A DNA stretch of 64,000 bases from contig NZ_AP023355.1 in assembly GCF_016865425.1 (NCBI RefSeq), positions 5,144,198 to 5,208,197 on the forward strand. The letters run 5' to 3'. A program made the translations under genes and the position numbers. Below the pieces are notes generated by a model that did not search any database, had not been told where the DNA came from, and saw only the letters and a list, made by a program, of their open reading frames with translations. This DNA is from Actinocatenispora thailandica (lineage in GTDB: Bacteria > Actinomycetota > Actinomycetes > Mycobacteriales > Micromonosporaceae). Of the stretch, positions 4,052 through 35,987 are shown in pieces. How positions within the stretch are numbered: position 1 is the stretch's first letter; each line of letters starts with the position of its first letter.

Positions 4052-4130
4052 GCTGATCCCCTGATCCGGTCGCGGTCTCGGTCGCGGCACCATCCCCCCG
4101 AATGCGTCCGCCCCTCCGAATGTCTCCGCG

Positions 4131-7310: not shown

Positions 7311-7312
7311 CC

Positions 7313-10092: not shown

Positions 10093-10103
10093 TGGTTTCT
10101 CCT

Positions 10104-12158: not shown

Positions 12159-12258
12159 CCGCACGGCCTCCTGTTCCCGACATCGGGCGCCGCCGGCGTC
12201 GAAACCGGCAGTTGTCTCTCGCAGGCTATGACCGCATGGTTCCGAAAATCAAATCGGT

Positions 12259-13941: not shown

Positions 13942-14997
13942 TCAGTGTCTCGTGCCGACGTGGTCGAGGATGCGGTGGCCGATCGCCTCCGCCAACCGCG
14001 GCGGCACCGCGTTGCCGATCAGCCGGCCGAGAGGAGCCAGCTGCACCGGCTGGTCCGGCGGCACGAACTCGTAGCTCGGCGGGAAACTCTGCAGGATCGC
14101 CGCCTCGCGCAGGCTGATCGGCCGGTCCTGCTCCGGATGGCCGAACCGGCCGGTACCGAAGTTGTAGGCCATCGTGGTGATCGTGGGCGCCGGCTCGTCC
14201 CAGACCATGCGCGCGTAGACGTTGCGGAAGGTGGCGCCGCTCTTCTTGGTGTGACAGGGCGAGAGCAGCTTCGGATCGTCCCAGTCGCGCCAGGTGCCTC
14301 CCGGCTTCGAGGCCCGTATCCGGGCCAGGTTCGTCGCGCCGAGGGTGCGGCTCTTGTGCAGCCGGTCGTCTGGGTGCTCCTGACCGTGCTCGATCGGAGG
14401 CAGTCCACCGATCTCGGTGCGGACCGTCCGGTATTCGCCGGCCGAGAGGCCGCCGGTCGGCACCGTGATCGGACCGATGCGGGACGCCAGCAGCACGCGC
14501 CGGCGTCGGTACTGCGGCACCCCGTAGTCCGGGCAATGGCACGAGCGATGGTCGACGAGGTATCCCTTGTCCCGCAACGTGTCCACGAACCGTTGGAAGA
14601 CGTCGGTGTTGACGATGCGGGGCACGTTCTCCATCGTCACGACGTGCGGCTTGGTCGCGGCGACCAGGCGGCTCATCTGGTCGACGAGCGGCCACTGCCG
14701 CTCCGCGGTGGTGTCCGCGCCCCGGCGGTAGGAGGAGAACGGCTGGCAGGGCGCACATCCAGCGAGCACCCGGTACCGCGTGCCCTTCGGCCACATCGCA
14801 CGGAGCTCACGCGCCGACAGCGTCGTGACATCCCGGCGATGGAAGCTCGCGTGGAGGTTCTGCTCGTACGGATAGCGGCAGCCCTCGTCCAGGTCGACCC
14901 CGGCCGCGATGTCGATGCCGGCCTGCGACAGACCGTAGGACAACCCACCGACTCCGCAGAACAGGTCGACGGCGGAGACACGGGGCGGCACGGGCAC
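13942..14997 (-). CDS. DNA (cytosine-5) methyltransferase
   Basis: 351 residues from a GTG at 14997. All key motifs are present: I AVDLFCGVGGLSYGL (residue ~9), IV GCAPCQPFSSY with the catalytic cysteine, VI VTMENVPRI, VIII QYRRRRVLLASR, and X IGNAVPPRLAEAIG at the C-terminus. The variable region between VIII and IX (about 205-285) sets the target. It is transcribed away from the sigma-drmA-drmB operon across a 260-bp gap. Class 2 DISARM contains a cytosine methylase (drmMII), and this gene would fill that role here, although the other genes are class 1-like. A Vsr repair endonuclease at 21440-21889 fits with a C5-methylase. Either a DISARM component or a solitary dcm-like enzyme is possible. 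Confidence 0.92.
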   Translation of the reverse strand: MPVPPRVSAVDLFCGVGGLSYGLSQAGIDIAAGVDLDEGCRYPYEQNLHASFHRRDVTTLSARELRAMWPKGTRYRVLAGCAPCQPFSSYRRGADTTAERQWPLVDQMSRLVAATKPHVVTMENVPRIVNTDVFQRFVDTLRDKGYLVDHRSCHCPDYGVPQYRRRRVLLASRIGPITVPTGGLSAGEYRTVRTEIGGLPPIEHGQEHPDDRLHKSRTLGATNLARIRASKPGGTWRDWDDPKLLSPCHTKKSGATFRNVYARMVWDEPAPTITTMAYNFGTGRFGHPEQDRPISLREAAILQSFPPSYEFVPPDQPVQLAPLGRLIGNAVPPRLAEAIGHRILDHVGTRH

Positions 14998-15182
14998 GAG
15001 CAGACTCTAGCCGATCGAGGCCGCCTCGTCGACGGGCAACGGGTGCCGCCTCGCGATGTCGGCAAGCCGACAGCGGCCGTGGGCTCGTGGGGCCGACGAT
15101 GCGTCGGTCGGAAACAGGAATGTCAGCCCTGTACAGGCTCTGGTATCCGAGAGAAAAGTTGTATTCGGGACGCGGCTCGATG

Positions 15183-15198
15183 TCGAACTCGTGTTCGA
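15183..15198. promoter_or_regulatory. LexA (SOS) box upstream of the sigma-DISARM operon
   Basis: TCGAACTCGTGTTCGA is a perfect match to the actinobacterial LexA box TCGAAC-N4-GTTCGA. It ends 60 bp before the GTG start of the sigma factor gene. A TANNNT-type -10 (TACGGT, 15226-15231) follows 27 bases downstream, so LexA bound here would block the promoter region. The cytosine methylase gene is divergent and 186 bp away, so it could be affected too. Confidence 0.75.
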
Positions 15199-15225
15199 AT
15201 TCGCCCTTTTGTCGGACCCCGTCCC

Positions 15226-15231
15226 TACGGT
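15226..15231 (+). promoter_or_regulatory. Candidate -10 element of the sigma-drmA-drmB operon
   Basis: TACGGT matches the TANNNT pattern of actinobacterial -10 boxes and lies 26 bp before the GTG start at 15258, between the LexA box and the ribosome-binding site GGAGG (15246-15250). No good -35 is seen at normal spacing. Confidence 0.35.
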
Positions 15232-15257
15232 GTGGAGCGATTCGAGGAGGGATCGAC

Positions 15258-16733
15258 GTGACCGCGAACGTTTTCCCTGCACCACACCGTTCCCACCGGC
15301 AGGACGAGGTCGGCGAAAGCCGTATCCAGCAGGAATTCTCGGCTCTCGTCCGAAGACAGGCCGGCCGTCCGAGCCGAGCGGCGCTCGACGAGTTCCTGGC
15401 CCGGCACGGCCTGACGAGCGACGCCGTCGGGCCGTTGCTGGCCGAGCTGGCCGCCAGCTATGCACCCGCGAATGGCGCAGAGCCGACCGCACCGGCCGCC
15501 CCGATCCCGGAACAACGATCCGCCCTGGCGCCCGACTCCGTCCGGGCATCCAGCCAGTCGGTGGCCGACGCCGGCGAGGACCTGGTCGGCGACTGGCTGC
15601 GTACCGGGCGACTCACTAACGAACAGGTGGCCACGACCGCCGCCGACCACGAGCTGAGCGGCGGCGAGACGGCCGAGCTGTACGACCTGCTCCGCGACTC
15701 GGGTGTGTCGCTCGAACGACCGGACGTCACTGGCGGTCGCCGACCGGTGGACCGGTCGGTGGGCGAACTGCCGGTCGGCGACGCGCTCGGTCGCTATCTG
15801 AAGCAGATCGGCCGGTACCGGCTCATCGACGCCGGCCGGGAGGTGGAGCTGTGGTCGGCGATCTCCCAGGGCGCGCAGGCCGACGCCGAGCTGTCGTCGG
15901 ATCGGCAGGAAACGCTCGACCAGCAGGCCAGGCTGCGGGAGATCTCCGCCGTGGGGCGCCGCGCGCACGAGGAACTGGTCTGCGCGAACCTGCGGTTGGT
16001 CGTCTCGATCGCGCGTGGCTACCAGGTTCGTGGGCTCGACCTCGCCGACCTCGTCCAGTTCGGCAACCTGGGCGTGATGCGCGCCGCGGACAAGTTCGAC
16101 GGCTCCAAGGGCTACAAGTTCTCCACCTACGCCACCTGGTGGATCCGGCAGAGCATCACCCGGGGCCTCGCCGACACGGGGCGCACCATTCGCCTGCCGG
16201 TGCACATGGCCGAGCAAGTCGACAAGGTGCGCCGGGCACAGTGGCTGCTGACCGCGCGCTTGGACCGCGAGCCGACGACCGCCGAGATCGCCGAGAAGGC
16301 GGGGCTTGAGCCCGGCGCCGTGGACGCGATCCGCGACCTGGATCGGCCGATGGTAAGTCTGGACGCACCGATCGGCACCGACGGCGACTCCCACCTTGCC
16401 GACTTCGTCGTCGACCGAGGGGTGATGTCCGACCCCGTCGAGTGGGTGACGGCGTCCGCGCAGGAAAGCGACGTCGATCGGGCGCTGCGAGCGACGCTGT
16501 CCGAGCGGGAGTACGAGATCGTTTGCCGACGGTATGGCATCCGGTTCGACGCCGCACAGACTCTCGACGAGATCGGCGCTGCTCTCGGCGTCACCAGGGA
16601 ACGGATTCGTCAGATAGTGAAGAAAGCATTGGGGAAGTTGCGCGACAGCGACACGATCGCGCCGCTGTATTCGTACCTGTCCGACGGGCCGGCGCCTTCG
16701 GAAGTGGCAGAGGGAAGGGGGGAACGTCGGTGA
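15258..16733 (+). CDS. Sigma-70-family RNA polymerase sigma factor embedded in the DISARM operon
   Basis: 491 residues from a GTG at 15258 with GGAGG seven bases upstream. Residues 1-160 are an unusual N-terminal extension with two short helical modules. The second (DWLRTGRLTNEQVA to LYDLLRDSGVSL) resembles region 1.1. After that the order is normal: region 1.2 (DALGRYLKQIGRYRL), region 2 (NLRLVVSIARGYQVRGLDLA, FSTYATWWIRQSITRGLADT), region 3 (REPTTAEIAEKAGL) and region 4 with its helix-turn-helix (TLDEIGAALGVTRERIRQIV). It is a complete group 1/2 (HrdB-like) factor, not an ECF type. Its stop overlaps the drmA start in GTGA. A LexA box lies upstream. Family knowledge gives promoter recognition; a dedicated role in switching on the defence operons is inference. 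Confidence 0.93.
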   Translation: MTANVFPAPHRSHRQDEVGESRIQQEFSALVRRQAGRPSRAALDEFLARHGLTSDAVGPLLAELAASYAPANGAEPTAPAAPIPEQRSALAPDSVRASSQSVADAGEDLVGDWLRTGRLTNEQVATTAADHELSGGETAELYDLLRDSGVSLERPDVTGGRRPVDRSVGELPVGDALGRYLKQIGRYRLIDAGREVELWSAISQGAQADAELSSDRQETLDQQARLREISAVGRRAHEELVCANLRLVVSIARGYQVRGLDLADLVQFGNLGVMRAADKFDGSKGYKFSTYATWWIRQSITRGLADTGRTIRLPVHMAEQVDKVRRAQWLLTARLDREPTTAEIAEKAGLEPGAVDAIRDLDRPMVSLDAPIGTDGDSHLADFVVDRGVMSDPVEWVTASAQESDVDRALRATLSEREYEIVCRRYGIRFDAAQTLDEIGAALGVTRERIRQIVKKALGKLRDSDTIAPLYSYLSDGPAPSEVAEGRGERR

Positions 16734-19700
16734 CCGAACAGAGCATCGGAGCGGCGTGCGAGCGGTTCGTCGAGTGGCTGGACCACGAGGTGCTGATGGT
16801 CGGGCGCGGGGACGACGTCGAACGGCTCGACGTGCGTCCGTCCAGCGTCTTCTGGTTGGGTCGGTTGGCCACCGAGGACGAGGTGCGCCGGGGGCAGGGT
16901 GACGAGCGCGCCGAGCGGCTCGACCCGTGTGCGATCGGTGTCCGGCTGCGCCCAGCCGAACCGTCACCATGGTCGCTGCGGGTGACCGTCCGGGCGCAGG
17001 CCTGGTTCCAGGCCTCCAAGGACGACCCCGACCCTGACCAGCGCTGGCGCCGGCTGGATCCGGTCGAGGAGACGGTGACGGTGACAGGGCTCGACCACGA
17101 CGGTGAGTATGGCAGCGAGCAGCTGGCGACCGCCTTCCGTGTGGTCGGGGCCGACGGGTTGACCGCCGAGGTGCGCGTCGAGGTGGAGGACTGGCACCGT
17201 ACGCCGGAGCTGGTGGTCCAGCTGGTGAACACCAGCCCGGAGAAGATCAAGGGCCTGGACACCCACCTGTTCGAGACCCGACTGACGGTCGAAGGTCTGG
17301 CGACGGTGCCGTTCGAGCTGGAGGCGCTGCCGGACAGCTACCGCTACGACCGGCAGGTGCCGGCCTACGGGATCAACGTCGGGGTCGAGCAGCCGGAGCC
17401 GGGCGTGTTCGCGACCACGGACACGGTGGTCGCGCAGAGCTGGCGTCCCGACTACTGGAACAGCACCCACAGCCGCCCCGACCTGCGCTTCGCCGCGCTC
17501 GCCGACGATCCGCTGCCGCACCTGACGGCCCTGGTGGACGCCGTGGACGAGTACGACCGGCAGCAATGGTCGGCGGAGATCCTGGATACGCGGGCCGAAG
17601 CCGAAGACTGGACCGAGCCGATGCGCACGGCTGCCGCCGCCGATGCGGCGAAGGTGTTCGACGAGTTGGACCGGCTGCGGGAGGGGCTCGCCGCGCTGCG
17701 GGACGATGCGACGCTGCGGCGGGCATTCTGTCTGATGAACGATGCGATGCGAGTCGCGACCGAGGGGCGTGGCTACGACTCGTGGCGGCCGTTCCAGATC
17801 GGCTTCCTGCTCGCGTCGGTGACGTTCCTGACCGCCCCGGAGCGTTCCGCCGACGTGGTGGACGTCGTCTGGTTCGCGACCGGTGGCGGCAAGACCGAGA
17901 CCTATCTGGGGTTGCTGCTGACGACCGCTTTCCACGACCGGCTCACCGGCAAGACGCACGGCATCACGGCGTGGTCGCGGTTCCCGTTGCGCCTGCTGAG
18001 TCTGCAGCAGACGCAGCGATTCGCCGACGCTCTCGCCGGTGCCGAGCGGGTCCGGCAGGACGAGCGGGTCGGCGGCGAGCCGTTCAGCCTCGGCTTCTTC
18101 GTCGGGAGCAACAACACTCCGAACAAGATCGTTCCGAACGGTCAGCAGCAGCACGACGGTGACGTGGTGGCCAAGAAGGACGTGGCGGTGCCGTACCAGG
18201 TGCTGCTGCGCTGCCCGTTCTGCCGGTCCGAGTCGGTGACGACGAGGTTCGACCGACGCACCTGGACGCTGCAACACCGGTGCGGCAACGCCGACTGCTG
18301 GTGGAAGCGGCCGGCGCTGCCGTTCTACGTGGTCGACCAGGAGATGTACCGGTTCCTGCCGACGGTGTTGGTCGGCACGCTCGACAAGGCCGCGACGATC
18401 GCCCACCAGCAGGCGATGCGCGGCCTGGTCGGCGCGCCGTACGGTGTCTGCACGATTCCCGGCCACGGCTTCACCTACGCGAAGCGCGGCAAGACTCCGT
18501 ACGGGTGCCTGGTGCCCGACTGCCAGGGCGGCGCGCCCGACCCGCTTCCGATGCCGGCGGAGCGGTTCGGACCGGCGCTGCGGCTGCAGGACGAGCTGCA
18601 TCTGCTGCGCGACAGCCTGGGGGCGGTGGACAGCCACTACGAGAGCCTGCTGGACTTCCTGCAGCTCCAGCTGTGTGGATCCAAGCCGAAGATCGTGGGT
18701 TCCAGCGCCACGTTGTCCGGCTACGAACGCCAGATCGACGTGTTGTATCGGCGGCAGGCCCGGGTCTTCCCGCAGCCGGGGCCGCGGTCGGGTGAGTCGT
18801 TCTGGACCCGGTCGACCGATAAGCCGCTGCGCCGGTACGTGGCGGTCGCGCCGAGGGGCGTGACGCTGGAGCACGTGAACGACCGGACCCTGGACACGCT
18901 GCAACGATCGGTGCGCCGGTTGCTGACCGAGCCGGACGAGGTGTGCGCCGCGGCCGGTGTCGATCCACGATTCGCGCGCGAGTTGGTGAGCCTGTACGGC
19001 ACCGACGTGGTCTACGGCACGGCACTGTACGACGTGACGGCCGCGGCGCGCAGCGCCGAGAGCAACCTGTCCGTGTCCGGCGTCGGTGTGGAGGAATTGA
19101 CCGGGCAGACCGCGTTCGACGACGTGCGGGGGATCCTGAATCGGCTCCAGCACCCGGAGGACGACTTCGGCGAGCGTGTGCACGTGGTCGCGGCCAGTTC
19201 CATGCTGTCGCACGGCGTCGACGTGGACCGGCTCAACACGATGGTGATGCTGGGGTTGCCGCTGAGCACGGCCGAGTTCATCCAGACCACCGCGCGCGTG
19301 GGCCGCAGCTTCCCCGGTCTGGTCTACGTCCTGCACAAGATCGCCCGGGAACGCGACGCGCAGACGTTCCGGCATTTCGGGCCGTTCGTGGCGCAGGGCG
19401 ACCGGTTCGTGGAGCCGATCCCGATCACCCGCCGCAGCCGCCGGGTGCTGGATCTGACCCTGCCGGGTCTGGTCGCCGCCCGCACCGTGATGGTGCAGGA
19501 GCCGGCGAGCAAGACCCGGTTGACCATGGTGTCCTGGCTGCGCAGCTACCTGCACGACATCGGGGCCACCGCCGAGTCGGAGGCGGCCGCCATCGCCGAG
19601 TTGCTCGGCTTCGATGCCGACGACCCGCTGCATCGCGAGCAGATCGAGTCCTGGTTCGAGGAGTGGTTCGCCAATCTCGACGACCCGGCGTTCGACCGGA

Positions 19701-19792
19701 AGTTCCCCCGTGACCTGAGCGCGCGCACACCGATGCTGAGCCTGCGTGACGTGGAGTCCAGCGCGCCGGTCTTCGACGACGAGGAGGCATGA
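16730..19792 (+). CDS. drmA: DISARM helicase DrmA
   Basis: 1020 residues from the GTG at 16730, whose last two bases are shared with the sigma factor stop; AGGGAAGGGGGG lies upstream. The N-terminal ~370 residues are specific to the family. The helicase core has Walker A FATGGGKTE (382-390), DEAH-type box DELH (621-624), SSATLSGYE (~658) and the C-terminal motif QTTARVGRS (852-860). A zinc-type cluster is inserted (C495, C498, C518, C523). DrmA with DrmB forms the core complex of DISARM that loads on incoming DNA. The drmB start overlaps its stop (ATGATG), and a ribosome-binding site GAGGAGG sits in its last codons. Confidence 0.9.
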   Translation: MTEQSIGAACERFVEWLDHEVLMVGRGDDVERLDVRPSSVFWLGRLATEDEVRRGQGDERAERLDPCAIGVRLRPAEPSPWSLRVTVRAQAWFQASKDDPDPDQRWRRLDPVEETVTVTGLDHDGEYGSEQLATAFRVVGADGLTAEVRVEVEDWHRTPELVVQLVNTSPEKIKGLDTHLFETRLTVEGLATVPFELEALPDSYRYDRQVPAYGINVGVEQPEPGVFATTDTVVAQSWRPDYWNSTHSRPDLRFAALADDPLPHLTALVDAVDEYDRQQWSAEILDTRAEAEDWTEPMRTAAAADAAKVFDELDRLREGLAALRDDATLRRAFCLMNDAMRVATEGRGYDSWRPFQIGFLLASVTFLTAPERSADVVDVVWFATGGGKTETYLGLLLTTAFHDRLTGKTHGITAWSRFPLRLLSLQQTQRFADALAGAERVRQDERVGGEPFSLGFFVGSNNTPNKIVPNGQQQHDGDVVAKKDVAVPYQVLLRCPFCRSESVTTRFDRRTWTLQHRCGNADCWWKRPALPFYVVDQEMYRFLPTVLVGTLDKAATIAHQQAMRGLVGAPYGVCTIPGHGFTYAKRGKTPYGCLVPDCQGGAPDPLPMPAERFGPALRLQDELHLLRDSLGAVDSHYESLLDFLQLQLCGSKPKIVGSSATLSGYERQIDVLYRRQARVFPQPGPRSGESFWTRSTDKPLRRYVAVAPRGVTLEHVNDRTLDTLQRSVRRLLTEPDEVCAAAGVDPRFARELVSLYGTDVVYGTALYDVTAAARSAESNLSVSGVGVEELTGQTAFDDVRGILNRLQHPEDDFGERVHVVAASSMLSHGVDVDRLNTMVMLGLPLSTAEFIQTTARVGRSFPGLVYVLHKIARERDAQTFRHFGPFVAQGDRFVEPIPITRRSRRVLDLTLPGLVAARTVMVQEPASKTRLTMVSWLRSYLHDIGATAESEAAAIAELLGFDADDPLHREQIESWFEEWFANLDDPAFDRKFPRDLSARTPMLSLRDVESSAPVFDDEEA

Positions 19793-21498
19793 TGCGCCAG
19801 CTCAGCAAGCGCAGCGGCAGCCAGATGATGCGGGCCTTCCTGCCGTACCAGACCGTCGACCTGAATCGACGGATCTACCAGGTGACCGAGTGGAAGGCAC
19901 CGGAGGTCGTCGAGGTCGACCGGGAGATGGTGCGCCGGCGGCTGCGCGGCGACATCTATCCCTGGACGCTCGCCGACCACGACATGGGCATGGGGCAGGC
20001 CCTGCAGCGGGGTGCGCCGGTGGAGGTCGTCCGGGTCGACGACCGCTTCGGGGTGCATGTGACGCGCTTCCCCCGGGTGTGGCTGTGCAACGGCTGCCGA
20101 CGCATCGGCCGCAACCAGAACGTCCGATGCCGATGCGGTACGAAGGACTGGACGCAACTGCACTATCTGGGAGTGCACGAGTGCGGCCGGGTGGTCGAAC
20201 CGTGGATCAGACAGTGTCCGGCGCACCAGGACGTCCGGCTGGACAGTCCGAAGAGCGCCAAGGCCGCGGACATCCGTTTCGTCTGCCCGGAGTGTCGCCA
20301 ACTGGTGCAGCAGGGCCTCGGCTTCAACCGCAAGTGCGAGTGCGGAAACGGCACGATCCGGTGGAACGTGCACAAGGCGCGGATGGTCTACACGCCACGC
20401 AGCATGGTGCTGATCAACCCGCCGGATCCCGAGCGGATGGCGGAGCTGAACCGCAACGGCGGCGCCCGCCAGGCACTGATCTGGGTGGTCGAGGGTCTGG
20501 CCGTGCCGTCGCCGAACGAGGTGGACGCACCCGAGTCCGCGGAGCACGCCCTGCAGAAGCTGTTGGACATGAAGATTCCGCGGGAGGTGGCCGAGATGGC
20601 GGTGGCGGCCCGCCCGGAGGCGCAGGAGCATCCGGCGGACCGGCTTCCGGCGGACCGGCGGGAACTCGCCGTGCAGGGCGCGGTCGACATCGCGATGGCG
20701 GTGGCCGAAGGACATCGCCCGGTGTCCGCACTGGCCGCCGAGACGTCGCCCCCGTCGTTGACCGACGCCTACCAGGTGCGTTATCCGCGGGCACTGCAGC
20801 GTGCCGGGATCGCGGGGCTCGATCTGGTCGACAAGTTCCCTGTCCTGCAGGCCGCGTACGGGTACACCCGAGGCGAGGACGATCCGGCGCGTTGCACCCT
20901 CGTGCCGTTCCGGAACGGCACCAAGTACCGGCTGTACGGCTACCGCAGCGACACCGAGGCGTTCCTGATCCGGCTGGATCCGGCCCGGGTCGCAGACTGG
21001 TTGCTGGCGCGCGGCCACAGATTGTCCGGCTGGTCCGCTGGTGACACCGATCCGCAGGCTGCGCGGCTGGCGGTGCTGACCGACGTGGACATCCCGCATC
21101 GGCAGGACGCCCCGGCGCCGACCGCCGGCAGTGACCTGTTGAAGCTGGTGCACACGTATGCGCACCGGTTCGTCCGGCAGGCGGCGGTGCTGTGCGGGAT
21201 CGACCGGGACGCGTTGTCGGAGTACCTGTTGCCGGGGCATCTGGCGTTCTTCGTGTACGCGGCGGCGCGCGGCGATTTCGTCCTGGGCGGCATGCAGGCG
21301 GTGTTCGAGTCGAACCTGGACGATCTGCTGACCGAGTTCGTGGACGCCGAGCATCGGTGCCCGCTGGATCCCGGCTGCGCGCGGGGCAGCGGCGCGTGCA
21401 GTGCGTGCGTGCATCTGGGCGAGCCGTCCTGCCGATACTTCAACCGGTTCCTGGATCGGCGGGTGCTCTTCGAGCGGGACGGCTACCTGCGGCGATGA
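19792..21498 (+). CDS. drmB: DISARM protein DrmB (DUF1998/MZB)
   Basis: 568 residues from the second ATG of ATGATG, four bases after GAGGAGG; the first ATG (19789) is only one base away from it. Three cysteine clusters suggest zinc sites: C99/C102/C113/C115, C131/C142 and C165/C168/C182/C184. The C-terminal third is DUF1998-like (VHTYAHRFVRQAAVLCG, AARGDFVLGGMQAVFE, ending with CPLDPGCARGSGACSACVHL). DrmB partners with DrmA. The last 59 bp overlap the end of the convergent vsr gene. No drmC follows, unlike in standard DISARM loci. Confidence 0.9.
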   Translation: MRQLSKRSGSQMMRAFLPYQTVDLNRRIYQVTEWKAPEVVEVDREMVRRRLRGDIYPWTLADHDMGMGQALQRGAPVEVVRVDDRFGVHVTRFPRVWLCNGCRRIGRNQNVRCRCGTKDWTQLHYLGVHECGRVVEPWIRQCPAHQDVRLDSPKSAKAADIRFVCPECRQLVQQGLGFNRKCECGNGTIRWNVHKARMVYTPRSMVLINPPDPERMAELNRNGGARQALIWVVEGLAVPSPNEVDAPESAEHALQKLLDMKIPREVAEMAVAARPEAQEHPADRLPADRRELAVQGAVDIAMAVAEGHRPVSALAAETSPPSLTDAYQVRYPRALQRAGIAGLDLVDKFPVLQAAYGYTRGEDDPARCTLVPFRNGTKYRLYGYRSDTEAFLIRLDPARVADWLLARGHRLSGWSAGDTDPQAARLAVLTDVDIPHRQDAPAPTAGSDLLKLVHTYAHRFVRQAAVLCGIDRDALSEYLLPGHLAFFVYAAARGDFVLGGMQAVFESNLDDLLTEFVDAEHRCPLDPGCARGSGACSACVHLGEPSCRYFNRFLDRRVLFERDGYLRR

Positions 21499-21889
21499 CG
21501 GCGGCCTGGACGCGGTCGGCGGCGTCGCCGATCGGCTCGTGTTCCCACACGTGCAGCACGGTCCATCCCAGCTCGGCCAGCGCGGCGTCCTTCGCCCGGT
21601 CGCGCGCGACGTTGCGCGCCAGCTTGTCGGCCCACCAGCCGCGGTTGTTGCGCGGCATGGTGCCGTGTTGCGGGCAGCGATGCCAGAAGCAGCCGTCGAC
21701 GAAGACCACCACCTTGGCCCGGGTGAACGCGATGTCCGGGCGGCCGGGCAGACCGGCGAGCACCACCCGGTACCGCAGCCCGCGTCGGTGCAGCTCGCGA
21801 CGGAGCGCCAGCTCCGGCTTGGTGCCGGCGCGCGGTTGCCGGGCGAGCCGGGCGGAGGTGGCGGCGTCGAGTGGGGTTGGCCGATCCAT
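21440..21889 (-). CDS. vsr: Very short patch repair (Vsr) endonuclease
   Basis: 149 residues from the ATG at 21889. The core GTKPELALRRELHRRGLRYR, then LPGRPDIAF with the catalytic aspartate, VVFVDGCFWHRCPQHGTMP with metal/zinc ligands, and WTVLHVWEHE, is the standard Vsr sequence. The enzyme nicks 5' of T:G mismatches that arise when 5-methylcytosine deaminates, so it usually accompanies a C5-methylase. Here the methylase is 6.4 kb away at 13942-14997. The gene is antisense and convergent with drmB and divergent from drmD. It either protects the host from mutation caused by the methylase or contributes to cutting foreign DNA. Confidence 0.92.
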   Translation of the reverse strand: MDRPTPLDAATSARLARQPRAGTKPELALRRELHRRGLRYRVVLAGLPGRPDIAFTRAKVVVFVDGCFWHRCPQHGTMPRNNRGWWADKLARNVARDRAKDAALAELGWTVLHVWEHEPIGDAADRVQAAVIAAGSRPARRAPADPGTG

Positions 21890-21994: not shown

Positions 21995-24850
21995 GTGACA
22001 TTGACCAAACAGACAGCCTTCGCGCCCGGTTCGGTCGTGGTGGTCCGGGACGAGGAATGGCTGGTCCAGGCGACCGAGGCGACGCCGGAGGGTACCCTGC
22101 TGCGGGTCCAGGGCCTGTCCGAGCTGGTTCGAGACACCGCCGCGGCGTTCTTCACCAGTCTCGACCGGGTGGAGCCGCTCGATCCACGGGATGCGGTGGT
22201 GGTGGCCGACGACAGCTCCCATCATCGCCGTGCCCGGCTGTGGCTGGAGGCGACGATCCGCAAGACGGCCGTCCCGTTGGCCGAGACGGAGTTGACCGTG
22301 GCCACCCAGGGCCTGGCGGACGCGCTGGTCTACCAGCGCTCGGCGGTGGCCAAGGCGCTGGATCCGGCGAACCTTCGGCCGCGGATCCTGCTGGCGGACG
22401 CGGTCGGTCTCGGCAAGACGCTGGAGATCGGCATGATCCTGGCCGAGCTGGTGCGACGTGGCCGCGGCGAGCGCATCCTGGTGGTCACCCCGCGGCACGT
22501 GCTGGAACAGACCCAACACGAGCTGTGGACCCGGTTCGCGCTGCCGTTCGTCCGGCTGGATTCGGCCGGCATCCAGCGGGTCCGGCAGCAGCTGCCGGCC
22601 ACCCGCAACCCGTTCAGCTACTTCAAGCGGGTCATCGTGTCCATCGACACGCTCAAGTCGGACCGGTACCAGGCAGCGCTGGCCAAGCACCGCTGGGACG
22701 CGGTGGTCATCGACGAGTCGCACAACCTGACCAATCGAAACACCCAGAACAACCGGCTGGCCCGGCTGCTGTCGCACAACACCGAGGCGCTGATCCTGGC
22801 GTCCGCGACGCCGCACAACGGGCGCGCCGAGTCGTTCGCCGAACTGATCCGGCTGCTGGATCCCTCCGCCGTGCCGCCCAGCGGTGAGCTGAACCGCGAC
22901 GAGGTCGGGCGGCTGGTGGTGCGCCGGCACCGGCACAGCCCGGAGGTGGCCAGCGTCGTCGGCGCCGACTGGAAGGAGCGGCAGCCGCCGCACAACGTGC
23001 TGGTCCCGGCCACCGAGGCCGAGAACGCGGTCGCCGACGAGCTGGAGCACACCTGGCTGTGGCCGGCCGGCGGGACGCCGCCGTATTCGGGACGCAACGG
23101 CGCGCTGTTCGCCTGGACGCTGGCCAAGGCGTTCCTGTCCTCCCCCGCCGCGTTGGCGGAGACGATCGCGGCCCGCCGGAACCGGCTCGCCGCCACGGCC
23201 GACACCGCGGCCGAGCGGGCCGCCCTGGATCGTCTGACGGCGGTCAACGAGGCGACGTTGCAGGCGCCGACCGGGAAGTATCGTGCGCTGGTCGAGCATC
23301 TGCGCGAGATCGGTGTCGGCCCGGACTCGCCGAGCCGGGCGGTGGTGTTCGCCGAGCGGATCGCCACCCTCGACTGGCTGCGGCGCCAGCTGCCGGCGGA
23401 TCTCCAGCTGCCGGACGAGGCGGTGCGGGTGATGCACGGCTCGCTGTCCGACGACGAGCAGCAGCAGCTGGTCGAGCAGTTCAAGCAGCAGAGCTCGCCG
23501 ATCCGGGTCCTGGTGACCGGCGACGTGGCCTCGGAAGGCGTCAACCTGCACGCCCAGTGCCACGAACTGGTGCACTACGACATCCCGTGGAGCCTGATCC
23601 GCATCGAGCAGCGCAACGGCCGCATCGACCGGTACGGGCAGCGGCAGAGTCCGCGCATCACCGCGCTGCTGCTCGACCCGGCGAGCGAGCGGTTCCGCGG
23701 CGACGTCCGGGTGCTGTCCAGTCTCGTACGGAAGGAGAGCGAGGCGCACACGGCGCTGGGCGACGCCGCCTCCCTGATGGGCGAGTACAGCGTGTCCGAC
23801 GAGGAGGAGAAGATCCGCCAGGTGCTCGCCGGGCAGCGTGAACTCGACGAGGTCGTCCACTCCGTCGAGCAGGCGAGCGCCGACGACAGCCTCGCGGCGA
23901 TGTTCGCCCACTTCGCGGCGACACCGGCCGCGGCGACCACCGGCTCGGTCGAGTCGCCCACCGGCACCGGGCTGTTTCCCGACGACGTGTCCTTCCTCGA
24001 CGACGCGCTGCACGAGGCGTACGTCGACCCGGCCGAGGCGTTGCCGCGGGGCGTGGGCTGGCGGCTGCACGAGGCGCACGGCACGGCCGAGCTGACCCCG
24101 CCGAAGGATCTGGTGCAGCGGCTGGCGTATCTGCCGCAGTCCTATCTCGCCGACCGGAAGGTCACCGACCGGCTGCTGCTGGCGACGACTCCGCTGCTGG
24201 GCAAGCAGCGGCTGGCCGCCGCGCTCGCCGACAAGGCCGGCACCACCTGGCCGGACGCGCACTATCTGGCGCCGCTGCATCCGGTGCTGGAGTGGGCGGC
24301 CGACCGGGCGCTGGCCCGGCTCGGCCGCAACCAGATCTTCGCCGTGCGCGGCACGGTGCACGAGCCCACCGTGCTGTTGGTGGGCACCCTCACCAACCGG
24401 CGCGGGCAGGTGGTGGCCACGACCTGGCCGACCGTGGCCTTCCCGACCGGCGACGCGTCGTTCGCCCCGGTCACGCCGTACGAGTCGGCGTCGGACGCGC
24501 TGGCCGCGCTCGGCCTGGACCGGTCCCGGCCGAACACCGGCGCGGTGGACGTCGAGGGCCTGCGCGCGCTCGTTCCTGCCGCGGTGGATGCGGCGGGGCA
24601 GCACATGGCCAGCGTCTTCGAGTCGGCGACCCGCGACGTCGAGCAGCGGTTGGACGCCTGGTCGAGCCGGCTCGACGGCTGGGAGGAGGACGCGGACGCG
24701 CTGATCCAGCGGGAGGACCTGAAGCGGCACCGGGTCGGTGTTCGGCAGGAGCGGGAACTGGTCGAGGCGATGGCGCCGGACCGAAAGCTGGTCCGCCCGC
24801 TGATCGTGGTGGTACCGGAACGCTCCGAGCCGTCGGAGGGCGAGGCATGA
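21995..24850 (+). CDS. drmD: DISARM SNF2-like helicase DrmD
   Basis: 951 residues from a GTG at 21995, with GGAG nine bases upstream; a TTG at 21989 lies too close to it. The N-terminal ~110 residues (FAPGSVVVVRDEEWLVQ) form the family's SH3-like start. The SNF2 core has Walker A ADAVGLGKT (134-142), VIDESHNLTN (~238), SATPHNGR and C-terminal IEQRNGRIDRYGQRQ (~535). A long C-terminal region (600-951) follows. DrmD belongs to class 1 DISARM. The gene starts the second operon: its stop overlaps the methylase start in ATGA. The 105-bp gap to the divergent vsr gene must hold its promoter, but none is clear. Confidence 0.9.
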   Translation: MTLTKQTAFAPGSVVVVRDEEWLVQATEATPEGTLLRVQGLSELVRDTAAAFFTSLDRVEPLDPRDAVVVADDSSHHRRARLWLEATIRKTAVPLAETELTVATQGLADALVYQRSAVAKALDPANLRPRILLADAVGLGKTLEIGMILAELVRRGRGERILVVTPRHVLEQTQHELWTRFALPFVRLDSAGIQRVRQQLPATRNPFSYFKRVIVSIDTLKSDRYQAALAKHRWDAVVIDESHNLTNRNTQNNRLARLLSHNTEALILASATPHNGRAESFAELIRLLDPSAVPPSGELNRDEVGRLVVRRHRHSPEVASVVGADWKERQPPHNVLVPATEAENAVADELEHTWLWPAGGTPPYSGRNGALFAWTLAKAFLSSPAALAETIAARRNRLAATADTAAERAALDRLTAVNEATLQAPTGKYRALVEHLREIGVGPDSPSRAVVFAERIATLDWLRRQLPADLQLPDEAVRVMHGSLSDDEQQQLVEQFKQQSSPIRVLVTGDVASEGVNLHAQCHELVHYDIPWSLIRIEQRNGRIDRYGQRQSPRITALLLDPASERFRGDVRVLSSLVRKESEAHTALGDAASLMGEYSVSDEEEKIRQVLAGQRELDEVVHSVEQASADDSLAAMFAHFAATPAAATTGSVESPTGTGLFPDDVSFLDDALHEAYVDPAEALPRGVGWRLHEAHGTAELTPPKDLVQRLAYLPQSYLADRKVTDRLLLATTPLLGKQRLAAALADKAGTTWPDAHYLAPLHPVLEWAADRALARLGRNQIFAVRGTVHEPTVLLVGTLTNRRGQVVATTWPTVAFPTGDASFAPVTPYESASDALAALGLDRSRPNTGAVDVEGLRALVPAAVDAAGQHMASVFESATRDVEQRLDAWSSRLDGWEEDADALIQREDLKRHRVGVRQERELVEAMAPDRKLVRPLIVVVPERSEPSEGEA

Positions 24851-27800
24851 GCGACGCGATCGTGATCGGGGAGAGCTGGATCTCCGAGCACTACTTCACC
24901 AGCGCCACCAGCGCCAAGTCGTTCCAGGCCCGGGTGCTGGCCCGGCGCAAGGCGTGGGACGAGGAGGAGGCGGCGGCCCGGGAGCGGGCCGCGAAGGCGA
25001 AGGAGGCCGGGCAGGAGCCGGGCGAGACCGCCGTGACCCCGCGGTCCCGGTTCCTGGGTGCCCGCGGCGAGTTGCTCGATACGCTGGTCGGCCTGGCCGA
25101 GCGGCTCGACACCGACGCCGACCCCGGCACGATCGACGCGGTCGACCGGGCGCAGACCGCGGCGACCGCGAACGCCTTGTCCGACCGGCTGCTGGCGGTC
25201 CTCGGCATCACCGGCGGCGCGCTGACGGTGCGGGGCGAGCATCCGCTGCGGTGGGTGCGCACACCCGGCATCGAGGGCCCCGCCCCGCTGGCGGTCGTCT
25301 CCGGCTACCCGGTCGCCACCGTCGAGGAGCTGATCGACCGGCATGCGCGCACTCTCGCCGTCCCGGTCGTGTTGCACGAGGACGGCGACGAGATCACCTC
25401 CGCCGCGCGCCTGGTCTCCACCCTGTTCACCGGGGACGAGGCGCCGCAGCTGGTGCTGGTGCTCGCCGGGCGGTGGGCGATGCTCGCCGAGCGGGAACGA
25501 TGGGCCGAGGGCCGGTACCTCGCCGTCGATCTGCAACTGGTCTGCGAGCGGAACGTGGGCACCCGCGGCGGCGAGGTGGACCGGGCGCTGACCTGCCTGT
25601 CGGTCGAGTCGATCGCCCCGGACGCGGACGGCGACCTGTGGTGGCAGCAGACGTTGACCGAGTCGATCGAGCACACCGTCGGCGTCTCCGCGGATCTGCG
25701 TGAGGGCGTCCGGCTCTCCATCGAGATCATCGCGAACGACGTGGTGACCCGGCGGCGGGAGGCGGGCCTGGAGCCGCTGCCGCAACACGACGCGCAGGAC
25801 CTCGCCAAGCACGCGCTGCGGTTCCTCTACCGGATCCTGTTCCTGCTCTACGCCGAGGCGAAGCCGGAACTGGGCGTGCTGCCGGCGGGGGCGCCCGAGT
25901 ACGACGCCGGATACGGGCTGGATCGGATGCGGGACCTGGTGCAGGTGGAGCTGCCGTCGCCGCAGGCACGGTCCGGCACCCACCTGTACGAGTCGCTGGC
26001 GACCCTGTTCCGGCTGGTCGACAAGGGGCATCCGGGTGGGTTCGACGACGCCACCGGCAGCGAGGAGCTGACCTTCCACCCGCTGCGCGCGGACCTGTTC
26101 CGGCCGGAGGCGACCGCGTTCATCGACGAGGTCGGGCTCGGCAACCTCGCGCTGCAACAGGTGCTCGGGCATCTGCTGCTGTCGAAGAAGCAGCGCGGCC
26201 GCGACCGCGGCTACATCTCCTACGCCGAGCTGGGCATCAACCAGCTGGGCGCGGTGTACGAGGGGCTGATGTCCTACACCGGCTTCTTCGCCGACACCGA
26301 CTTGTACGAGGTGGCCAAGGCCGGCAACGCGGACAAGGGTTCCTGGGTGGTGCCGGTCGACCGCGCCGACGGCATCGGCACGAACGACTTCGTCCGTGCC
26401 GAGGACCCGGACACCGGCGAAGACAAGCCGGTGCTGCATCGGCGGGGCTCGTTCGTGTACCGGCTGGCCGGCCGGGAGCGCCAGCAGTCGGCGTCGTACT
26501 ACACGCCGGAGGTGCTGACCCGCTTCACCGTCGGTCAGGCGCTGGCCGAGCTGCTGCCGCCGAAACCGGGCGAGAGGTCCGTCCACGCGAGCCGGGACGA
26601 CGAGGGCGAAGAGCCGGAGGCCGACGATGCGGCGGCGAGGCCGCCGATGTCGGCGCGGGACATCCTGGACCTGACGATCTGCGAGCCGGCGCTCGGGTCC
26701 GGCGCGTTCGCCATCGAGGCGGTCCGGCAGCTGGCCGCCGAATATCTGGAGCGGCGGCAGGCCGAGCTGGGCACCACCATCGACCCGGACGAGTACCAGC
26801 GGGAGCTGCAGAAGGTCAAGGCGTACCTCGCCCTGCACAACGTCCACGGCGTGGACCTCAACTCCACCGCCGTCGAGCTGGCGGAGATCTCGCTGTGGCT
26901 GGACACCATGGTCGCCGGCCTGGACGCGCCGTGGTTCGGCCTGCATCTGCGCCGCGGCAACTCGCTGGTCGGCGCCCGCCGCGCCGTCTTCGACCGCAAG
27001 CAGGTCGCCGACAAGTCCTGGCTGACGGCGATCCCGCGGGACGTACCGCCGACCGACCTGGTCGACCGCGACCCCGACGAGCAGACCGGCGCCGGAATCG
27101 GCGACGCCGTGCACCACTTCCTGCTGCCGGCGCCCGGTTGGGGGGCCGCCGCCGATGCGAAGGAGGCGGCCAGGCTCGCGCCCGACGCGGCGAAGCGGCT
27201 GAAGGACTGGCGCAAGGCGGTCAGGCTCAAACCGACCGCCAAGCAGGTCGCCGCGCTGACCGACCTGGCCAAGCGGGTCGAGTCGCTGTGGCGGCTCGCC
27301 CACCGGCGCCTGCAGATCGCCGAGGCCGAGGTGCGCCGCAACATCGACGTCTGGGGCGCACCCGGACTGCCGTCCGGCGGGACGGTCACCCGGGAGGAGA
27401 TCGAACGCAAGCTCGCCGACCCGAACGGCGCCTACCGACGGCTACGCCGCGCCATGGACGCCTGGTGCGCCCTCTGGTTCTGGCCCCTCACCGAGGCGAC
27501 GACCACGGTGGACGACAAGGCCGTCGATCCGCCGACACTCGACCAGTGGATCGACGCGCTGCGCCGGCTGCTCGGCCGGCACGACGGCAAGCGGCGGGTG
27601 GCCGCCGGTCAGTCGTCGCTGCAGACCGGCTCGTCCTGGCAGGACCTGAACAACCAGGAGACGACGGATCTCGGCATGGCCAGTGTCGCCTCGATCGGCC
27701 CACTGCTCGCCGACCACCCGTGGCTGGTCGTCTGCGAACGGGTCGCCGCCCAGCAGGGTTTCTTCCACTGGAATCTCGACTTCGCCACCGTCTTCGCCCG

Positions 27801-29682
27801 CGGCGGCTTTGACCTCCAGCTCGGAAACCCACCCTGGGTCCGTCCCCGCTCCGACGTCGATGCACTGCTCGCCGAGGGCGATCCCTGGTGGCAACTTGCC
27901 CGCAGACCAGCTCAGGAACAGATCACGGCCAAGCGCGAGGAGACCCTCGCATTGCCGGGCATGACCGACCTGGTACTCGACGGCACCACCGATATCGCCT
28001 GCCTCGCCGACTATCTCGGGTCATCGGCCCAGTACCCGCGCCTGCAAGGCCTCCAACCTGATCTCTACCGCTGCTTCATGGAGCGCATGTGGCAACATGC
28101 ATCAACGTCCGGTGTAACCGGCATGATCCACCTGGAGTCTCATTTTACAGATGAGCGTGCTGGGCTGTTACGTGAAGAGCTATACCTGAGACTCCGGCGG
28201 CATTGGCACTTCGTCAACCAGCTCTTGCTTTTCGAAATTCAGAATCACAAACACTTCGGCATTACAATCCAGGGTTCAAAGCGTGAGGCGCCCAATTTCA
28301 TACAGGCCTCCTGGCTTTACCATCCTGAGACAGCCATAAGGTCGTTCGAGCACGACGGTTCTGGCGAGGAGCCGGGTCTGAAGGACCATGAAGGCCGATG
28401 GGACGTCCGACCGCATCGCGCGCGACTCACTTGGGTGACCGACACGACATTAACCACCTGGCATACGATGCTGGAAGATCCGGACGTGCCAATCCGCCAG
28501 ACCCGAATGGTCTATGCGGTCAATCGGTCGGTCGTCTCCGTGCTCGACAAGCTCTCGCGCGCCCCACGGATCGGTGACCTCGATCTGGAATTCTCGCGCG
28601 GCTGGGACGAGAGCATCGATCGGAAGAAGGGGTACTTCGAAACCGAGTGGGGGGTCCCGGCGTTCTGGGACGATGTGATCCTGCAGGGGCCGCATCTGTT
28701 CGTGGCGACGCCATTCTACAAGACACCCAACGAGACCATGAACAGCAACAAGGACTGGTCGGCGACCGACTTCGAGGCGCTGGCGGCCGACGCCGTTCCC
28801 GCCACCGCCTACAAGCCACGCGGCGACCGCGCCCGCTACGACGCCGCCTACACCACCTGGCCCACCCCCGACGGCCCCCGCTCCGCCCGCAACTACTACC
28901 GCGTCGCCTGGCGGCGGATGGCCGCAAACACCGGTGAGCGCACGCTGATCGGAGCAGTGGTACCACCAGGCTCCGCACACGTGCATCCCGTGCACACCTT
29001 CGCGCCAAGCGACCGGAACCTGCCGAGCTTGCTGGCCGCGTGCGCCTACACGTCGTCGATCGTGCTGGACTTCTCGGTTCGATGTGTACCCAAGTCGGAG
29101 ATCCTCTTCGGCACGATCGAACGGATGCCAGCGAATTTCGACCATCCGATGCTGAGCTCGCTGGTCCTGCGATCCGCTCGACTGAACAGCATCACCAGTG
29201 CCTACACGGAGCTCTGGAATGCGTGTTACTCCCGCGACTTCATGGACGACCATTGGGCCGGCGGGTTCGAGCACGCACGCCGGCAACCGCTCTGCCACAT
29301 CGGACCGGATTGGAGCCCCGCCACGCCGTTGCGCATTGCGGCGGATCGGCGGCAGGCGTTGGTGGAGATCGATGCGTTGGTGGCGTTGATGTTGGGGCTG
29401 AGCGCCGAGGAGTTGTGCACGATCTATCGGACGCAGTTCGCGGTGCTGTACGGGTACGACCACAACGTCTACCACTACGACGCGAACGGGCGGCTGGTGC
29501 CGAACTCGGTGCTGACGGTGTGGCGGAAGAAGGGTGACCGACTGAGTGTCGAGGAGCAGACGGCAACCAACCAGGCGGGCAACACCTACACCTACCAGCT
29601 GCCGTTCCGGACGCTGGACCGGGAGAAGGACATGACCGAGGCGTACCAGGAGTTCGAACGCAGATTGGCGGCCCGGTCGTGA
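24847..29682 (+). CDS. drmMI: Large N6-adenine DNA methylase, DrmMI-like
   Basis: 1611 residues from the ATG that overlaps the drmD stop. An N-terminal half (ISEHYFTSATSAKSFQAR, then a charged coiled stretch and ISYAELGINQLGAVYEGL near 460) leads to the methylase core: RQQSASYYTPEVLTRF, motif I CEPALGSGAFAIEAVRQ (~611), VHGVDLNSTAVELAEISLW and motif IV LGNPPWVRP (~993). The C-terminal ~600 residues hold target recognition and are A/T-richer between about 27.9 and 28.6 kb. Class 1 DISARM uses such an enzyme to mark host DNA. The neighbour drmD and length support this. PglX of BREX is a related alternative, but no other BREX genes are present. Confidence 0.87.
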   Translation: MSDAIVIGESWISEHYFTSATSAKSFQARVLARRKAWDEEEAAARERAAKAKEAGQEPGETAVTPRSRFLGARGELLDTLVGLAERLDTDADPGTIDAVDRAQTAATANALSDRLLAVLGITGGALTVRGEHPLRWVRTPGIEGPAPLAVVSGYPVATVEELIDRHARTLAVPVVLHEDGDEITSAARLVSTLFTGDEAPQLVLVLAGRWAMLAERERWAEGRYLAVDLQLVCERNVGTRGGEVDRALTCLSVESIAPDADGDLWWQQTLTESIEHTVGVSADLREGVRLSIEIIANDVVTRRREAGLEPLPQHDAQDLAKHALRFLYRILFLLYAEAKPELGVLPAGAPEYDAGYGLDRMRDLVQVELPSPQARSGTHLYESLATLFRLVDKGHPGGFDDATGSEELTFHPLRADLFRPEATAFIDEVGLGNLALQQVLGHLLLSKKQRGRDRGYISYAELGINQLGAVYEGLMSYTGFFADTDLYEVAKAGNADKGSWVVPVDRADGIGTNDFVRAEDPDTGEDKPVLHRRGSFVYRLAGRERQQSASYYTPEVLTRFTVGQALAELLPPKPGERSVHASRDDEGEEPEADDAAARPPMSARDILDLTICEPALGSGAFAIEAVRQLAAEYLERRQAELGTTIDPDEYQRELQKVKAYLALHNVHGVDLNSTAVELAEISLWLDTMVAGLDAPWFGLHLRRGNSLVGARRAVFDRKQVADKSWLTAIPRDVPPTDLVDRDPDEQTGAGIGDAVHHFLLPAPGWGAAADAKEAARLAPDAAKRLKDWRKAVRLKPTAKQVAALTDLAKRVESLWRLAHRRLQIAEAEVRRNIDVWGAPGLPSGGTVTREEIERKLADPNGAYRRLRRAMDAWCALWFWPLTEATTTVDDKAVDPPTLDQWIDALRRLLGRHDGKRRVAAGQSSLQTGSSWQDLNNQETTDLGMASVASIGPLLADHPWLVVCERVAAQQGFFHWNLDFATVFARGGFDLQLGNPPWVRPRSDVDALLAEGDPWWQLARRPAQEQITAKREETLALPGMTDLVLDGTTDIACLADYLGSSAQYPRLQGLQPDLYRCFMERMWQHASTSGVTGMIHLESHFTDERAGLLREELYLRLRRHWHFVNQLLLFEIQNHKHFGITIQGSKREAPNFIQASWLYHPETAIRSFEHDGSGEEPGLKDHEGRWDVRPHRARLTWVTDTTLTTWHTMLEDPDVPIRQTRMVYAVNRSVVSVLDKLSRAPRIGDLDLEFSRGWDESIDRKKGYFETEWGVPAFWDDVILQGPHLFVATPFYKTPNETMNSNKDWSATDFEALAADAVPATAYKPRGDRARYDAAYTTWPTPDGPRSARNYYRVAWRRMAANTGERTLIGAVVPPGSAHVHPVHTFAPSDRNLPSLLAACAYTSSIVLDFSVRCVPKSEILFGTIERMPANFDHPMLSSLVLRSARLNSITSAYTELWNACYSRDFMDDHWAGGFEHARRQPLCHIGPDWSPATPLRIAADRRQALVEIDALVALMLGLSAEELCTIYRTQFAVLYGYDHNVYHYDANGRLVPNSVLTVWRKKGDRLSVEEQTATNQAGNTYTYQLPFRTLDREKDMTEAYQEFERRLAARS

Positions 29683-35984: not shown

Positions 35985-35987
35985 CAC

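Follow-up and report, generated by a model that had tools for sequence, protein, structure and literature searches.

A sigma-70 family factor encoded with DrmA and DrmB in Actinocatenispora thailandica: a possible DNA-damage-inducible defence operon

We analysed a stretch of 64,000 nucleotides (nt) from the genome of Actinocatenispora thailandica (contig NZ_AP023355.1, positions 5,144,198 to 5,208,197), termed the window here, in which a gene for a sigma-70 family factor, termed SIG, directly precedes the genes for a DrmA-like helicase and a DrmB-like protein. We propose, with confidence and doubt in about equal measure, that these three genes form a DNA-damage-inducible defence operon, the first gene of which would encode a dedicated, working sigma factor. 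This proposal draws on the protein itself, on its linkage to DrmA in other genomes and on the sequence in front of the operon.

15244..15251, + strand: strong Shine-Dalgarno sequence of SIG, GAGGAGGG, read from the sequence.
15258..16733, + strand: SIG, a complete sigma-70 family factor of 491 amino acids (aa), by Pfam regions 1.2-4 above the cut-offs and by Foldseek.
15780..16679, + strand: core of SIG, regions 1.2-4 (aa 175-474), by Pfam and alignment.
16730..19792, + strand: DrmA-like (YprA-family) helicase; PADLOC DrmA 348 bits, NCBIfam DrmAS 374 bits at a cut-off of 950.
19789..21498, + strand: DrmB-like protein; PADLOC DrmB 123 bits, NCBIfam DrmB_fam 59.5 bits at a cut-off of 240.

The SIG gene starts with GTG and stops with TGA at 16731-16733, and the GTG start codon of drmA at 16730-16732 produces the 4-bp overlap (GTGA, 16730-16733) that an initial annotation of this DNA had described. 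The same annotation had called the protein a complete sigma-70 factor, which the Pfam scores bear out: region 1.2 (22.8 bits), region 2 (69.5 bits), region 3 (65.0 bits) and region 4 (59.3 bits), together the mark of sigma-70 groups 1/2, all exceeded the curated cut-offs. In an alignment of 22 members, the FSTYATWW stretch and Q298 of regions 2.3-2.4 as well as E448/R449/R451/Q452 of region 4.2 were invariant or nearly so. These are the positions with which sigma-70 factors open and read promoters. Foldseek matched SIG first to sigma-A chains from polymerase complexes of Streptomyces and mycobacteria at ~44% identity; the best match (44% identity) is a sigma chain from such a complex of Streptomyces venezuelae, and a sigma chain solved together with PafBC is among the first. 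The predicted structure of SIG is of moderate quality overall (mean predicted local distance difference test (pLDDT) 76.6, predicted template modelling score (pTM) 0.38).

The initial annotation had also remarked on an odd N-terminal extension of ~160 residues. The extension stands, with ~174 residues before region 1.2, which are predicted to form two small helical domains.

15297..15458, + strand: SIG domain 1 (aa 14-67), three helices; block pLDDT 80-88 over aa 21-60, alignment and profile search.
15537..15698, + strand: SIG domain 2 (aa 94-147), sigma region 1.1-like, three helices; hhalign, block pLDDT 88-93 over aa 101-150.

Its oddness was not upheld for domain 2, which matched region 1.1 of the genome's own HrdB with an hhalign probability of 93%. 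SIG thus carries at its N-terminus the region 1.1 that is a trait of primary sigma factors, and such a domain is ordinary for a sigma of the primary type. Domain 1 resembled domain 2 weakly (hhalign 50%) and showed no similarity to HrdB region 1.1 (hhalign 5%). It was observed in the main SIG clade alone. The divergent loci L081-L084 lack it, as do the reading frames selected for L075 and L085.

The linkage of SIG to DrmA was followed in 354 genomes of the same family, one genome per species. Besides the window, the DrmA search found 22 relatives with at least 50% identity, and SIG lies immediately 5' of DrmA in 21 of them; the exception, L068 in genome G604, is the sole close family relative without SIG. 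None of 18 distant DrmA loci (at most 40% identity; 12 from the main DrmA search and 6 of 20 further matches, a second, distant DrmA in G725 not being counted separately) had a SIG match, also when the Roseomonas sigma factor described below served as the query at E 1e-3. Homologues lying mostly away from DISARM genes, which the initial annotation had named as evidence against a link, were not what we found. A profile of the SIG N-terminus matched strongly in 18 of the 354 genomes, the own genome included, and in each of them the match was the SIG gene that adjoins DrmA. A further 38 genomes gave weak matches only (at most 30.4 bits), nearly all on the region 1.1 part; each of 12 weak-match loci checked contained an HrdB core, one of them only partly, and one weak match, in G488, overlaps the known divergent SIG of that genome. 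A search of 396 genomes of the phylum with the single N-terminal sequence returned the own genome, G204 and one spurious match, in G321 (L104), which was dropped, the frame not being sigma-like by eye. L001 and L002, two sigma genes from a contig scan with SIG, matched in the core only (42% and 32%) and were kept as outgroups rather than relatives.

Across 394 genomes of the class, DrmA matches came from five: the own genome, G204, G877, G839 and G1087, the last three being read as loci L157-L159. G877, which belongs to another family, carries SIG; G839 has a different open reading frame (ORF) in the place of SIG, and G1087 has a DrmA of 40% identity and no SIG. No match was added by 22 searched genomes of that other family. 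The arrangement extends to proteobacteria. DrmA was matched in 56 plasmid records, of which the two of highest identity were opened: plasmid pOT10-1 of Roseomonas sp. OT10 encodes vsr, sigma, DrmA, DrmB and methyltransferase consecutively, and on a plasmid of Burkholderia aenigmatica a sigma gene lies on the opposite strand, close to an interrupted DrmA and DrmB. A sigma gene also immediately precedes DrmA in the IMG/VR contig L164, where the stretch L164:4938-14129 holds SIG-DrmA-DrmB together with Vsr and methyltransferase genes, and the adjoining genes are phage-tail-like by eye. Viral contigs searched with the SIG N-terminal alignment gave no confirmed relative, and phage records searched with the Roseomonas DrmA at E 1e-20 gave no match.

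In a quick DrmA tree of 48 proteins with several long branches, all 26 DrmA proteins accompanied by SIG fell inside one clade of 29 (Shimodaira-Hasegawa-like approximate likelihood ratio test (SH-aLRT) 99). The remaining three are L068, L158 and L163, the upstream side of the last being removed by a contig end, and outside the clade SIG accompanied 0 of 19. In the sigma tree, one branch separates the 26 SIG proteins from 11 other sigma factors; the support for this branch is weak (83/39; 82% of bootstrap trees). Judged by gene neighbourhood and phylogeny, SIG is thus a dedicated partner of one DrmA clade in the host's family and in proteobacteria. Some members vary in their surroundings. At L158, an ORF of 774 aa without a PADLOC match (L158:2659-4983, + strand) occupies the place expected for SIG upstream of DrmA. 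The divergent SIG-DrmA-DrmB loci L081 and L084 have a gene for a GHKL (MutL/MORC-like) ATPase adjacent to SIG and divergent from it, and a C5 methyltransferase at a distance of some kb. At L085 (G716), SIG, DrmA and DrmB are in broken frames, and this locus may be decayed or mis-sequenced.

Within the main clade, SIG cores were 46-57% identical to that of the window and DrmA proteins 63-67%, as compared with 87-88% for the HrdB core between the own-genome copy L003 and 11 relatives, a twelfth having matched in part only. The HrdB value is possibly understated, because L003 is only one of two close own copies and the other, L004, is nearer in the sigma tree. By these identities, SIG is a fast-changing sequence relative to HrdB and DrmA. 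Fast change would suit a passenger gene without a defence role, carried along by the operon structure, as would the missing SIG in L068 and the other ORF in its place in L158. Yet SIG is retained in most members over a large divergence and across phyla, with invariant sigma motifs, and we regard a mere passenger as very improbable.

The initial annotation had not described what lies in front of the operon.

15183..15198, no strand assigned: perfect LexA (SOS) box, TCGAACTCGTGTTCGA, one of 9 perfect sites in the own genome; Streptomyces consensus.
15209..15231, + strand: PafBC-type (P1) damage promoter, TTGTCG-N11-TACGGT, 10 nt past the LexA box.

The LexA consensus of S. venezuelae is tCGAAC-N4-GNNCGa (PMC9380542). 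The own genome of 7.43 Mb contains 9 perfect boxes and the reversed control 0, and another of the nine precedes a frame read by eye as ruvC, which carries an SOS box in S. venezuelae (PMC9380542). The second element follows the consensus of the mycobacterial P1 damage promoter, tTGTCRgtg-8nt-TannnT (PMC5656591), in TTGTCR, in the 11-nt gap and in TAnnnT, with GAC at the gtg triplet; in mycobacteria, the housekeeping sigma and PafBC together act at this promoter (PMC11804915). Judged by the -10 element of the window, transcription would start near 15238. We defined the pair as a LexA box with at most 3 mismatches and YTGTCR-N11-TAnnnT at a spacing of 10-11 nt. It was found in 17 of 23 loci (the window and the 22 relatives), each of which has a single copy within its analysed stretch of up to 20 kb; the six loci without it are the fused L065 and L067 and the divergent L081-L084. 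When only the 300 nt upstream of SIG were considered, the pair was present in 16 of 17 stretches, and a LexA box with at most 1 or 2 mismatches in 10 and 14, respectively; the SIG starts of relatives were picked by rule, so that the motif of L085 lies upstream, beyond its 300-nt stretch. In 34,000 dinucleotide shuffles the pair occurred 0 times, the PafBC motif in 0.15%, and the LexA box in 0.15% (at most 1 mismatch) and 1.9% (at most 2). No LexA/PafBC promoter was found in the stretches upstream of the fused genes at L160 and L161 (~3.5 and 4.4 kb), nor a LexA-type box within ~300-440 nt upstream of the Roseomonas and L164 sigma genes. A separate promoter and terminator between SIG and drmA, the other outcome that the initial annotation had named as contrary, did not emerge either: a sigma-70 consensus scan of 14990-17000, whose scope does not include damage-type promoters, returned no promoter-like or terminator-like site.

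The own genome encodes one LexA and has 13 WYL-domain matches, including one adjacent pair. The motif TTGTCR-N11-TAnnnT occurs at 18 sites (L165-L182), as opposed to 4 in the reversed control. Among the script-picked downstream frames, of which 10 of the 18 were scanned, five belong to replication and repair: the DNA polymerase III beta subunit (dnaN), DNA polymerase I (polA), an AlkZ-like glycosylase, a DinB-family protein and, judged by its UvrB-interaction domain, presumably Mfd. Of the other five, two had no match and three encode a helix-turn-helix protein, a hydrolase and a 5'-nucleotidase-type protein. This composition suggests a PafBC regulon in the own genome, and the host may be able to use both LexA and PafBC signals.

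The initial annotation had offered self-amplifying expression, in which SIG would drive the operon from its own upstream promoter, with sensing of a phage takeover of the host polymerase as a further possibility. That SIG is the first gene of the operon speaks for this idea, as do its HrdB-like promoter-contact residues, with which it could read the same -10 element. The promoter, however, is of the LexA/PafBC type, which the housekeeping sigma serves in mycobacteria. L068 retains the pair before drmA without having SIG, so self-amplification is not required, and L065 and L067 have SIG and no such motif in the stretches read. We therefore consider self-amplification improbable; the LexA/PafBC promoter redirects the interpretation to control by the damage responses of the host.

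In the damage-inducible operon that we favour, phage replication would generate single-stranded DNA and damage, which would release LexA and activate PafBC. The housekeeping polymerase would then transcribe SIG, DrmA and DrmB jointly, and translational coupling would hold their ratio. SIG could bind core RNA polymerase and guide it to promoters for defence or repair. It would serve as a second primary-like sigma, one that evolves fast, and would sustain this transcription when the host sigma is limiting or blocked by the phage. The promoter of the operon itself would be independent of SIG.

Several observations weigh against this proposal. The T of the HrdB ITRA motif is kept in the window SIG only, 21 of the 22 SIG members differing at this position, which may mean an altered reading of the -10 element in the relatives. 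The 17 loci with the promoter are relatives of one another and are thus not 17 independent cases, and the pair is lacking at L081-L084, L155, L156 and L157. The mycobacterial PafBC motif is apparently not conserved in S. venezuelae (PMC9380542), so that carrying PafBC control over to this genus is an extrapolation, and the adjacent WYL pair, which fits the pafB-pafC arrangement, is an unconfirmed candidate only. By eye, we saw no motif shared by the promoters of SIG and of the ArmA gene of the neighbouring system (see below), and no SIG-specific motif. A TAGGCT-type -10 element with no evident -35 precedes ArmA in most loci, including L068 without SIG, and is not clear in the window. Finally, in G567 and G590, SIG forms the C-terminal portion of a far longer frame, which is odd for a pure promoter factor.

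L160:783-7448, - strand: G567 fusion of 2,221 aa; AAA_11/AAA_12 superfamily 1 helicase and MTES_1575 nuclease domains.
L161:4426-10500, + strand: G590 fusion of at least 2,025 aa; AAA_11/AAA_12 superfamily 1 helicase and MTES_1575 nuclease domains.

The remainder of the G567 protein, its sigma part aside, is similar to the PADLOC families PDC-S37, Mokosh and Hhe. These two natural fusions with a helicase-nuclease raise another explanation, which we take seriously and consider the less probable one: SIG could be a physical part of the machinery, binding polymerase or promoter-like open DNA and thereby bringing DrmA-DrmB, or the fused helicase-nuclease, to transcribed DNA. In an infected cell such DNA would largely be that of the phage, and the regulation of host genes would not be the task of SIG. 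The pairing of SIG with one DrmA clade across phyla would fit such a role, no target promoter was found for SIG, and the LexA/PafBC promoter may already be sufficient to explain expression. Against it, SIG retains the residues of regions 2.3-2.4 and 4.2 that read promoters, beyond what tethering to polymerase alone would need. Moreover, DrmA and DrmB persist in L068 and L158 without SIG, which is therefore not an obligate subunit. In a more specific version, which we find rather doubtful, SIG would be the subunit that targets an antiviral helicase-nuclease complex. It would link DrmA-DrmB to polymerase or to the opening of promoters, and foreign DNA would thus be hit where it is transcribed. 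In that equally doubtful extension, the two DNA-damage pathways of the host would set the dose, and the SIG fusions would be the same device in one chain.

Around the SIG-DrmA-DrmB operon, the window contains further genes related to defence.

13942..14997, - strand: C5 cytosine DNA methyltransferase, DrmMII-like, divergent from SIG; Pfam DNA_methylase 169.5 bits, PADLOC DrmMII 321 bits.
21440..21889, - strand: Vsr-type nicking endonuclease; Pfam Vsr 67.9 bits, PADLOC Vsr 67 bits.
21995..24850, + strand: BrxHII/RapA-like helicase (DrmD-like; ArmA position); PADLOC DrmD 302 and BrxHI/HII 186 bits, start read from the sequence.
24847..29682, + strand: PglX-like/type IIG methyltransferase (ArmB position); PADLOC REase_MTase_IIG 1424 and DrmMI 166 bits.
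29679..35984, + strand: YprA-family helicase with MrfA Zn-binding domain (ArmC position); PADLOC and Pfam.
35988..38111, + strand: UvrD/GajB-like helicase (ArmD position); Pfam UvrD-helicase, PADLOC NERD+UvrD and GajB.

The DISARM label of the initial annotation holds in part. DrmA and DrmB of the window match DISARM families, and the DrmMII C5 methyltransferase of class 2 is present (PADLOC 321 bits), yet the two proteins score under the NCBIfam cut-offs (DrmA 374 of 950 bits, DrmB 59.5 of 240 bits), short of a full-strength match. DrmC (PLD) was not among the PADLOC matches listed for the 17 window proteins scanned, a subset of the ORFs. The initial annotation had counted the drmD- and drmMI-like genes as part of the same system. 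We treat them as a separate neighbour, because the order of 21995-38111 (BrxHII-like, PglX-like, YprA-like, GajB-like) is that of ARMADA type II (PMC12458937) and 8 of the 22 SIG-DrmA-type relatives have no ArmA in the stretch read, the other 14 having one. SIG-DrmA-DrmB is hence best seen as a module adjoining a neighbouring ARMADA-like system. The protein in the ArmC position has PADLOC DruE/DpdJ matches in its first 774 residues and Pfam MZB in its last 994; of the further domains described for ARMADA type II, Pfam at E 0.05 gave neither a Vsr-type C-terminal domain on the YprA protein nor a RelE-like domain on the GajB-like protein. On the - strand, 1883-12164 holds type I restriction genes (REase, specificity, methyltransferase), a further helicase of the UvrD/NERD type and an ORF that matches mad2 weakly. 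Rfam gave no match within the window.

With DISARM, the system in the window shares a YprA-family, DrmA-like helicase beside a DrmB-like protein and a C5 methyltransferase (DrmMII); it differs by its own sigma factor and the Vsr nuclease. The statement of the initial annotation that no DISARM system was known with its own sigma factor agrees with our literature searches, in which none of the papers listed reported a sigma factor alongside DISARM genes, supplements and most subscription papers lying outside their scope. In their available parts, PMC12458937, PMC12839542, PMC10740426, PMC11705971, PMC10693628 and PMC13373217 describe no DISARM sigma. The word sigma occurs twice in the main text of PMC12458937, each time in the name of a supplier, and it is absent from Iyer 2008 on MORC/MutL neighbourhoods. 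The likeness to ARMADA type II (PMC12458937) concerns the gene order of the neighbour at 21995-38111 and not the SIG module.

The MZA system likewise includes a sigma-70 protein (MzaA, NCBIfam NF041931) in a defence set, and the core of SIG matches it with 271 bits in NCBIfam and 157 in PADLOC. However, 271 bits compare with a cut-off of 800, and the first ~420 profile positions are unmatched, so the match is not a full-length one. We take the partner genes of MZA to differ from those of the SIG locus, and no description of the function of the MZA sigma was found in the literature searched.

In the CalpL-CalpT-CalpS system of type III CRISPR, a sigma factor remodels transcription upon infection, CalpS being freed via proteolysis of its anti-sigma factor (PMC12751052), whereas the induction of SIG appears to be transcriptional. 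CapH-CapP, CapW/BrxR and CapK-CapS exert damage- or single-stranded-DNA-responsive control over immune operons, including DISARM (PMC13373217, PMC10693628). Those regulators are encoded with the operon, whereas the sites at the SIG locus fit the host's own LexA and PafBC. Sigma factors in defence are thus already known from MzaA and CalpS, and a sigma factor with DrmA-DrmB is apparently unreported. If SIG acts with helicases and not on promoters, it would represent a new route to the recognition of phage DNA, via transcription, and the fusion proteins, the SIG-less relative and the proteobacterial copies provide ready-made comparisons. As the damage-inducible operon proposed here, the module would bring a dedicated sigma factor of primary-like type into the DISARM branch of immunity and link the operon to the LexA and PafBC responses of the host.

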